Source of the DNA: Acidobacteriaceae bacterium
GTDB taxonomy: Bacteria > Acidobacteriota > Terriglobia > Terriglobales > Acidobacteriaceae
NCBI GenBank assembly: GCA_903642235.1
Contig: CAHJWL010000002.1
Span: forward strand, 186,001-250,000
DNA: 64,000 bases
Direction: 5' to 3'
The notes under the pieces are model-generated. The model was not told the origin of the DNA and ran no database searches. It saw only the letters and a program-made list of their open reading frames with translations. Shown here one piece after another: positions 21,972 through 23,833 of the stretch. A program made the translations under genes and the position numbers. Every line of letters starts with the position of its first letter. Position 1 is the first letter of the stretch.

Positions 21972-22250
21972 CTATCGCCCTCCGGCAATGGACGGAATAA
22001 GCATCACCTCGTCGCCATCCTGGAAGGCATACGTCTCCCCTCCCAGGAACCGGATATCTTCATCGTTCACGTAGATATTTACAAAGCGGCGCAGCTGTCC
22101 CTGCTCGTCTTTGATCTGTGTTCCCAGAGCTGGGAAGGTCTGATCGATGTCGCTCAGCAGTCCCGGCAGGTTCTCTGCGCCAGAGTTAAAGGTCTTCTTG
22201 CCCCCGGTATGACGCGTAAAGGCTGTGGGCAGCGTTACTTGGATCGGCAT
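21972..22250 (-). CDS. MoaD/ThiS-family ubiquitin-like sulfur carrier protein
   Basis: 92 residues with a beta-grasp fold: a first strand IQVTLPTAF, the LPGLLSDID helix, FVNIYVNDEDIRFLGG, then DGDEVMLIPSIAGGR. The Gly-Gly near the end is where such carriers are adenylated and thiocarboxylated, but here one arginine follows it. A peptidase (a Mec+/JAMM type in related systems) or a tolerant activating enzyme would be needed. Its ATG overlaps the stop of the threonine-synthase-like gene as TGATG, so the two are translationally coupled. This argues that it supplies sulfur to that enzyme, as CysO does for CysM in Mycobacterium. No E1-like activating enzyme is in the window. Confidence 0.85.
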   Translation of the reverse strand: MPIQVTLPTAFTRHTGGKKTFNSGAENLPGLLSDIDQTFPALGTQIKDEQGQLRRFVNIYVNDEDIRFLGGETYAFQDGDEVMLIPSIAGGR

Positions 22251-23530
22251 CAGTAAGCTCCTACGGTGGCAAGCTCCGGTTCGCTCACCTGCTCCAACTG
22301 CTGGATATAGGCCGTGAAGTCCGCCAGCCTCGGCCGGATGCTCTGCTCTGTCGGGTAGCTTCCGGCCAGAGCATCTGTCGTCTTTAGACCATTACCCGTA
22401 ATCACCGACACTGTAACCTGGTCGCGTGTGATGCGGCCGTGCGCATACAGCCGAGCCGTTACAGCCGTTGTTACGCCGCCCGCGGTCTCCGTAAAGATGC
22501 CTTCAGTCTCGGCCAGTTCCTGAATACCGGAGACAACTTCGAGGTCAGAGACGTCCTCCGCATACCCTCCCGTGTCCTGAATCATCTTCGAAGCAGCGGG
22601 TCCATCCGCCGGATTGCCGATAGCAAGAGACCGGGCAATTGTGTTCGGCCGCTGCGGCTCAATGTAGTCCAGCCCTTGCTTTACGGACTGTGCAATCGGC
22701 GAGCATCCGGTTGCCTGCGCGCCAAAGAAGCGAACTGGCTTCTCTTCAACCAGCCCGAGCGCGATGAGTTCCTTGAAGGCCTTGCGAATCTTGCGGATCA
22801 GCGATCCGCCGGCCATCGGGCACACGATGTTGTCAGGCAGCCTCCATCCAAGCTGCTCCGCGATCTCGTATCCAACCGTCTTTGATCCCTCAGCGTAGTA
22901 GGGCCTTAGATTTACATTGACCAGACCCCACCGATACTCCTCCGCGATCTGTGTGCAAAGACGATTTACGTGATCGTAGTTTCCTTCCACCCTGACCAGT
23001 CGAGCGCCATAGACCAATGTGTTCAGGATCTTTGCGGGCTCAAGATCAGCAGGAACCAGAATGGTCGCCTTCAAGCCAAGGCGAGCCGCCTGGGCCGCTA
23101 CAGCATTGGCCAGATTTCCGGTCGAAGAGCAGCCAACCGTCGTGAACCCGAATGCCTGCGCATTTGCCAGCGCCACGGAAACCACTCGATCCTTGAAAGA
23201 GAGCGTCGGGAAGCATACAGCATCATTCTTGATGTAGAGCTTTTCCGCCCCAATGCGCCGACCGAGTGAACTGGCTCGAACAAGGGGTGTGAAGCCGACC
23301 GGCAGATCCGGCTCAAAGCCGTCAGGGAGCGGGAGCAGCGCTTTATAACGCCATATGTTGAACGGACCAGCCGCGATCGATGCGCGGCTTACGTGCGGCC
23401 GAATCGCTTCCAAATCGTAGTGCACTTCGAGGGGAGCCAGGCAGACGTCACAAGCCGAAAGCGGTTGATTCCCAAAAGATCGACCGCATTCGTTACAGTG
23501 TAGCTCGTACGTTCTACAGGAATAAGCCAT
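22250..23530 (-). CDS. Threonine-synthase-family PLP enzyme; possible homocysteine synthase
   Basis: 426 residues of fold-type II PLP enzymes. An N-terminal zinc ribbon has Cys12, Cys15, Cys27 and Cys30, followed by the PLP lysine in LSFKDR (Lys113) and the phosphate-binding CSSTGNLANA loop. By homology it would turn O-phosphohomoserine into threonine. Two sequence features suggest another product: a SAM-type riboswitch lies in its leader, and a sulfur-carrier gene is fused to it by a TGATG overlap. Replacement of the phosphate by sulfide from a carrier thiocarboxylate would give homocysteine for methionine. I recall a similar threonine-synthase-like/carrier pair described in Streptomyces but cannot verify it. 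GGAGAG precedes the ATG; an upstream CTCC could mask it. Confidence 0.85.
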   Translation of the reverse strand: MAYSCRTYELHCNECGRSFGNQPLSACDVCLAPLEVHYDLEAIRPHVSRASIAAGPFNIWRYKALLPLPDGFEPDLPVGFTPLVRASSLGRRIGAEKLYIKNDAVCFPTLSFKDRVVSVALANAQAFGFTTVGCSSTGNLANAVAAQAARLGLKATILVPADLEPAKILNTLVYGARLVRVEGNYDHVNRLCTQIAEEYRWGLVNVNLRPYYAEGSKTVGYEIAEQLGWRLPDNIVCPMAGGSLIRKIRKAFKELIALGLVEEKPVRFFGAQATGCSPIAQSVKQGLDYIEPQRPNTIARSLAIGNPADGPAASKMIQDTGGYAEDVSDLEVVSGIQELAETEGIFTETAGGVTTAVTARLYAHGRITRDQVTVSVITGNGLKTTDALAGSYPTEQSIRPRLADFTAYIQQLEQVSEPELATVGAY

Positions 23531-23653
23531 TGCACTCTCCAGTGGAGGAGGGGTCTGGCTGGCTAGAACGCTGACTCACTCTGGGGTGCCTACACGGCAA
23601 AGGAAGGAAATACGGGGTGCAGCCATGCTGGAAGAACGGCTGCGTTCTCCGAA
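23531..23653 (-). promoter_or_regulatory. Leader between the riboswitch and the threonine-synthase-like gene
   Basis: About 120 bases without a gene. It should hold the expression platform. The Shine-Dalgarno sequence (complement of 23535-23540) can pair with CTCC encoded at 23544-23547 in a small hairpin. No T-run terminator is visible, so control of translation is more likely than attenuation. A plus-strand open frame across this area (23586-23837) has no homology or start-site support and is not called. Confidence 0.45.
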
Positions 23654-23756
23654 TCTCATGTTCCCTGTCTCCAGGAGAGAGTTGACACCGGTACGAAGTA
23701 TTCTGTCCGGTTGTCGTGGCGTCGTAGGGCTCGTCCCTCAACCACTCTGCATGAAA
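23654..23756 (-). ncRNA. SAM riboswitch (SAM-I/SAM-IV superfamily)
   Basis: Read on the minus strand, the leader contains the core of SAM-I-type aptamers in order. P1 5' strand TTTCATG (23756-23750) is closed by CATGAGA (23660-23654). GGTTG pairs with CAACC to form P2. Between them lies GAGGGACGAGCCC then TACGACGCC, matching the conserved GAGGGACnGGCCC kink-turn region. GACA pairs with TGTC in P3 around a TAC-TTC-GTA hairpin, and GGTGTCAACTC matches the conserved GGUGCnAAnUCC strand. A short TCTC/GAGA stem replaces P4. The gene it precedes encodes a threonine synthase homologue plus a sulfur carrier, consistent with control by methionine status. Confidence 0.78.
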
Positions 23757-23833
23757 TTCAAATCTGCCGAGGCAGACTGGAATGATTCAGTTGTAGCACA
23801 GCTCTCTATGATCCGCAACCCGGCGGCATACAT

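Follow-up and report, generated by a model that had tools for sequence, protein, structure and literature searches.

A SAM-riboswitch-controlled MetM/MetO-like gene pair in Acidobacteriaceae: a candidate O-phosphohomoserine route to homocysteine

Cysteine is the product of the CysO/CysM/Mec+/MoeZ system of Mycobacterium, which works with a carrier thiocarboxylate, a MoeZ-type E1 and a JAMM peptidase. In Wolinella, HcyS/HcyF/HcyD act together with MetY, a tailed carrier is trimmed by a protease, and homocysteine is synthesised from O-acetylhomoserine. The closest system is MetM with MetO, reportedly described in Streptomyces by Hasebe et al. in 2024 (AEM 90:e01247-24) as an O-phosphohomoserine route to homocysteine, with homologues said to occur in other bacteria and archaea; this is the enzyme-carrier pair from Streptomyces to which a sequence-only reading of the present DNA had alluded. 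According to the part of PMC12172450 that was available, MetM is a homocysteine synthase acting on O-phosphohomoserine to give homocysteine, homologues of it occur in cyanobacteria, and metM of S. albulus carries an upstream SAM riboswitch. Because of this S. albulus case, a riboswitch in charge of such a pair is no novelty as such, and the doubt about novelty voiced in the sequence-only reading was justified. A literature search of openly licensed papers, some available in part, returned no acidobacterial MetM/MetO case, and the parts of PMC12452182 and PMC7311316 that were available held nothing on the MetM/MetO route.

The window analysed here is a stretch of 64,000 nucleotides from an Acidobacteriaceae bacterium (assembly GCA_903642235.1, contig CAHJWL010000002.1, positions 186,001 to 250,000). 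On its minus strand, a SAM riboswitch, a metM-like gene and a metO-like gene follow one another in that order, with the features listed below.

23653..23757, minus strand: SAM-I (S-box) riboswitch aptamer, RF00162 (68.5 bits, gathering score 44.4, E 7e-14)
23537..23550, minus strand: short hairpin, a possible cover of the metM Shine-Dalgarno sequence (putative translational expression platform)
22250..23530, minus strand: metM-like gene, threonine-synthase-family PLP enzyme of 426 aa (PALP/PF00291, TIGR00260)
21972..22250, minus strand: metO-like gene, ThiS-family sulfur carrier of 92 aa ending SIAGG-R (PF02597)

The three elements that the sequence-only reading had named were all borne out: the SAM-type aptamer by RF00162 at 68.5 bits against the gathering score of 44.4, the threonine-synthase-family gene with intact PLP lysine by PF00291, TIGR00260 and K113 in SFKDR, and the carrier gene overlapping the enzyme stop by its PF02597 match and the single base shared between the two genes (TGATG). 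In the covariance search, the aptamer match spanned the whole model and was the only one above the gathering score within the window; it was also the only RF00162 match in the 3.79 Mb genome.

Family models showed a threonine-synthase-like enzyme. The metM-like protein matched PALP/PF00291 with 229 bits, was above the TIGR00260 thrC cut-off (275 bits vs 167) and below that of the PRK08197 threonine synthase model (274 vs 303). Its PLP lysine K113 aligned to K61 of Thermus ThrC, four cysteines (C12, C15, C27 and C30) were invariant in 13 aligned relatives, and its best PDB sequence matches were threonine synthases. Among the matches listed, from which very near records may be missing, the closest named metM genes were those of an uncultured Granulicella (84%) and Edaphobacter lichenicola (82%). 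The phylogeny against true threonine synthases, which the sequence-only reading had proposed as a check, placed the window gene in a separate clade (100/100). This single branch held 24 MetM rows, which by record title represent ten phylum-level groups: besides the window gene, it contained Nonomuraea, cyanobacteria including Microcystis, Nitrospirae, Nitrospinae, Neomarinimicrobiota, Armatimonadetes, Deltaproteobacteria, Kiritimatiellae and Omnitrophota. The Nonomuraea protein stood in for S. albulus MetM, and no row was an experimentally shown MetM. The genome's own thrB-linked ThrC clustered with the structurally solved ThrC of Aquifex and of Thermus (support 100/98), and the window gene lay outside that group. 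Twenty-seven columns that are fixed (23-24 of 24) across the MetM rows differed in the three ThrCs (own thrB-linked, Aquifex and Thermus), 3 of the 27 falling where two solved ThrC pieces have no residue. Thermus T88, S155, N157 and R160, some of which presumably bind the substrate phosphate in ThrC, were L, N, R and Y, respectively, in the MetM group.

The genome, with a completeness of 99.87%, contained 8 PALP genes, three of them of the ThrC family. One of these (C2:184592) overlapped the start of thrB, whose product scored 234 bits vs 168 on TIGR00191. The window gene as the sole threonine synthase of the genome was thus rejected, since two further ThrC-family genes were present, one of them thrB-linked; a second thrC had been looked for on the advice of the sequence-only reading, and the window gene proved to be one of three. 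The third copy (C1:254537-255808, L024:9537-10808), present in addition to the thrB-linked one, had 496 bits vs 303 on PRK08197. The genome also held its own MoaD and ThiS in addition to the metO-like carrier.

Conventional methionine genes were searched for in the same genome. MetA was not found, and a MetX search with NF001209 at E 1e-60, a model above its cut-off in 5 of 14 control genomes, returned nothing; the TIGR01392 MetX cut-off (500) was passed by none of the 14 controls and so says little alone. Two weak MetX-like matches were seen (L021 with 151 bits, L022 with 87 bits). The better gene reached 143 and 151 bits against cut-offs of 331 and 500 and barely passed PRK07581 (334 vs 332), and the other passed PRK06489 (488 vs 305). 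As both fitted best to these models, each titled "hypothetical protein", and showed apparent secretion signals at their N-termini, they were rejected as qualifying MetX, although they may still act as acyltransferases. One full-length PF01053 gene passed cystathionine gamma-lyase PRK07582 (446 vs 440) and was far below every MetY, MetZ or MetB cut-off among the 25 models shown (TIGR01326 MetY, 165 bits vs 495); three further PF01053 matches above the cut-off were partial (109-149 positions, 28-36 bits). PF01837 had no match in the genome, and the HcyBio route was rejected for that reason. A gene for PRK08645 homocysteine methyltransferase/methylenetetrahydrofolate reductase was present (699 bits vs 453). 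The expectation that methionine synthesis would need no O-acyl homoserine agreed with these searches, in which MetA, a qualifying MetX, MetY/MetB/MetZ and HcyBio were not found.

The survey of class Terriglobia covered 299 genomes, 73 of them from the family of the window genome. MetM was found in 164 genomes (157 at E 1e-120 or better), MetX in 95 and MetA in 16, and SAM riboswitches numbered 153 sites in 143 genomes. With 7 genomes of intermediate MetM score (E between 1e-70 and 1e-120) left out of the main table, 14 genomes had MetM together with MetX/MetA, 143 had MetM alone, 90 had MetX/MetA alone and 45 had neither (Fisher 4e-26, shared ancestry ignored); counting the 7 weak genomes as MetM gave 16, 148, 90 and 45, respectively, and the same conclusion. 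MetM and MetX/MetA therefore largely exclude each other across the class. Since relatedness inflates P values, more weight falls on the replacement seen inside a single family: in the family of the window genome, with the weak G072 left out, 8 genomes had both, 49 only MetM, 13 only MetX/MetA and 3 neither. Riboswitch and MetM coincided in 55 family genomes, with MetM only in 2, riboswitch only in 0 and neither in 16. Across the class, riboswitch and strong MetM were found together in 112 genomes, with 45 having MetM only and 31 the riboswitch only.

Sixty of the 153 riboswitch sites were chosen to span genus, family and class. A metM gene stood directly after the riboswitch at 55 of them (20/20 in the genus, 23/24 in the family, 12/16 elsewhere) and metO was present at 20/20, 22/24 and 7/16 sites, respectively; one further site had metO, L079 was a short contig, and L101 was without metM and metO. 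A second set of 30 loci (L029-L058, partly the same sites) had metM in 28, the exceptions being L044, which stops at a contig edge, and L057, with a kinase and a PF01053-like gene. Other genes followed metM in some relatives: thrB, at times separated from it by metO, in L107, L109, L110, L114, L179 and L182; a ThiF-family E1 in L104-L106, followed in L104 by an asd-like gene; and a MoeZ-like E1 in L151, L171, L175, L180 and L182. In G051:C79 (L113, L114), two SAM riboswitches lay about 11 kb apart, one leading into metM-thrB and the other into metO and an amino-acid-kinase gene. L115, without metM, had a riboswitch followed by aspartate-kinase-like, cystathionine-gamma-synthase-like (PRK07811, 511 vs 513) and asd-like genes. 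The genes behind the riboswitch therefore point to O-phosphohomoserine as the substrate and to carrier-borne sulfur. Among named loci, the riboswitch scan covered 34 of 80. Twelve of the 18 acidobacterial loci scanned had the riboswitch, each immediately before metM; of the 16 non-acidobacterial ones, L190 and L195 had it immediately before metM, and 13, including 6 cyanobacterial loci, had none. In Nonomuraea, the riboswitch, metM (52%) and a metO ending AGG were arranged as in the window.

Some riboswitch sites had other surroundings. At L101 (G298:C66), the second SAM riboswitch of a metM genome preceded a cysteine-desulfurase-like gene (NifS model, 453 vs 531), the product of which might donate sulfur to the carrier. 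At L118 (G109), in a genome with MetX and without a MetM match, the riboswitch preceded an ORF that matched no NCBIfam model at E 1e-30 and whose motif GPHGTGKS resembles a nucleotide-binding one. At L194:1131-3501, the riboswitch lay about 2.3 kb upstream of metM, with CysM-like and E1-like genes between in the same direction.

Leader sequences were folded for the genus and family, with start codons picked by script and L080, which lacks a start codon, dropped. In 37 of 43 leaders, that of the window included, three or more bases of the Shine-Dalgarno-like purines were paired, and 32 of 43 folded within the best tenth of mononucleotide shuffles. Both sides differed between leaders in the stems CUCUCC/GGAGAG and CUUUCC/GGAAAG. 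The window hairpin has 4 bp and, with 28.5% of shuffles as good, is not exceptional alone; when the complete window leader is folded at minimum energy, the Shine-Dalgarno GGAGAGU pairs with aptamer bases 76-82 instead. These predicted folds suggest that SAM may control the operon at translation.

The metO-like protein matched PF02597 ThiS with 41.6 bits against a cut-off of 22.5. It ends ...SIAGGR, one residue past the diglycine, and because of this arginine the carrier would need to be unmasked. The same feature was common in relatives: AGG was found in all 49 acidobacterial survey carriers and was terminal in only 2, the other 47 extending past it by 1 to 29 residues (33 of them by 2). The named acidobacterial loci gave 21 carriers from 22 loci (none found in L179), with tails of up to 33 residues; a motif search matched 20 of the 21, 2 ending at GG, and the motif was also present in the remaining one (L132), which had been read from an internal start. 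L143 and L110, with identical carrier tails, were counted once, the named-locus and G-genome sets overlapping there. Cyanobacterial carriers ended at GG in 48 of 48 cases, and those of other phyla in 3 of 9 (none found in L183). Two carriers from deltaproteobacterial-type genomes (L190:4757-5269 and L194:6127-6639) extended 80 residues past the diglycine, so their sulfur acceptor is internal until cut; that of L190 is a ThiS-NIL fusion (PF09383), and the L194 tail looks alike. A cysteine-rich tail after the diglycine, CCSYCGQE(D/E)C..., was common to the acidobacterial carriers of L082, L089, L094, L096 and L124 and is perhaps a metal- or redox-sensing mask.

The E1-like and JAMM proteins that the sequence-only reading had named as worth a search were both located in the same genome, in a cysM-JAMM-carrier-moeZ operon at C1:468061-471201 (L023:6061-9201). 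Its JAMM peptidase matched PF14464 with 83 bits, its carrier, the second, ends in GG plus 12 residues, and its MoeZ-like E1 has a rhodanese domain. Judged by its gene families, this operon may encode a CysO-like cysteine route.

With three ThrC-family genes in the genome, a separate clade for the window gene, a real aptamer and conventional methionine genes not found, the idea of an O-phosphohomoserine route gained support, and the window pair is very probably the acidobacterial form of MetM/MetO, its activity being predicted from sequence. In the proposed route, translation of the carrier would follow directly on that of the enzyme, and the carrier would then lose its C-terminal arginine to leave a bare diglycine, most likely through the JAMM peptidase encoded at C1:468-471k. 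As the protein families suggest, a MoeZ-type E1 would adenylate the diglycine, and the carrier thiocarboxylate would be formed by the rhodanese domain of this E1 or by some other donor. Homoserine kinase ThrB would supply O-phosphohomoserine, made for threonine, from which the PLP enzyme, by analogy with published MetM, would eliminate phosphate and add the carrier sulfur at the gamma carbon to give homocysteine. The PRK08645-type homocysteine methyltransferase would then yield methionine and thereafter SAM; SAM would bind the aptamer and shut the operon, probably at translation, and the separate ThrC beside thrB would keep up threonine synthesis. It is also conceivable, though we lean somewhat against it, that in Acidobacteria a single JAMM peptidase and a single MoeZ-type E1 serve both the CysO-like and the MetO masked carriers, with sulfur for cysteine and methionine split at that point and SAM regulating the methionine branch only.

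The enzyme might instead be an ordinary threonine synthase paralogue whose adjacent carrier serves another pathway, such as molybdopterin synthesis or tRNA thiolation. The TIGR00260 score of 275 above the cut-off and the threonine synthases among the best PDB sequence matches agree with this, as does the cyanobacterial homologue, 51.6% to MetM, which according to the available part of PMC12172450 has weak threonine synthase and threonine deaminase activity and gives cells no methionine; because of that homologue, membership of the clade does not prove activity. However, the gene falls in a separate clade at 100/100, a SAM riboswitch was found in 55 of 57 family MetM genomes, MetM and MetX/MetA largely exclude each other across the class, and the genome has a thrB-linked ThrC and its own MoaD and ThiS, which together make a mere paralogue highly improbable.

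Two other possibilities keep O-phosphohomoserine as the substrate and change the sulfur source. Homocysteine could be made with free sulfide, the carrier being helpful and not needed, given that PLP enzymes of this fold generally often accept free sulfide; the carrier gene beside metM at 20/20 genus and 22/24 family sites, and the carrier gene with its own SAM riboswitch in G051, make this rather unlikely, although outside the family the carrier was beside metM at only 6 of 12 sites. Alternatively, cystathionine could be made from O-phosphohomoserine and cysteine, as by plant cystathionine gamma-synthase, for which a lyase-type PF01053 gene is at hand in the genome. We consider this scarcely credible, since the usual partner of metM is a sulfur carrier and not a beta-lyase, the lyase passes the gamma-lyase model only, among the 25 shown, and the available part of PMC12172450 calls MetM a homocysteine synthase.

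If the window pair is indeed a MetM/MetO system, a methionine route published in 2024 also occurs in a major soil phylum. The absent genes and the shared regulation, taken together, argue that many of these bacteria use it in place of the textbook route. Anyone annotating their genomes with the textbook route in mind would mistake them for methionine auxotrophs with spare threonine synthases, and the masked carriers point to a candidate protease step.

Compared with ThrC (PDB 2zsj, 1uim), the window enzyme is likewise a fold-type II PLP enzyme of the PALP family and would use the same substrate if our reading is right, whereas it stands in a separate clade with 27 fixed differences. The tailed carrier resembles that of Wolinella HcyS/HcyF/HcyD, unlike which no MetY was found in the acidobacterial genome. 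The Mycobacterium CysO/CysM/Mec+/MoeZ system has its likeness in the cysM-JAMM-carrier-moeZ operon, but the window pair is unlinked to that operon and is SAM-controlled. Streptomyces MetM/MetO is the nearest match, with a ThrC-like enzyme, an adjacent ubiquitin-like carrier, an upstream SAM riboswitch and O-phosphohomoserine as branch metabolite, and with no O-acylhomoserine genes found here as a further likeness. Differences from it are that some acidobacterial relatives place further genes (thrB, E1, asd or kinase) behind the riboswitch, and that acidobacterial carriers extend past the diglycine (47/49) whereas Nonomuraea and 48/48 cyanobacterial carriers end at GG, a comparison that does not take in the Streptomyces carrier end. 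The architecture and regulation of the pair are thus already known, and the masked carrier is, to our knowledge, the sole difference in anatomy.
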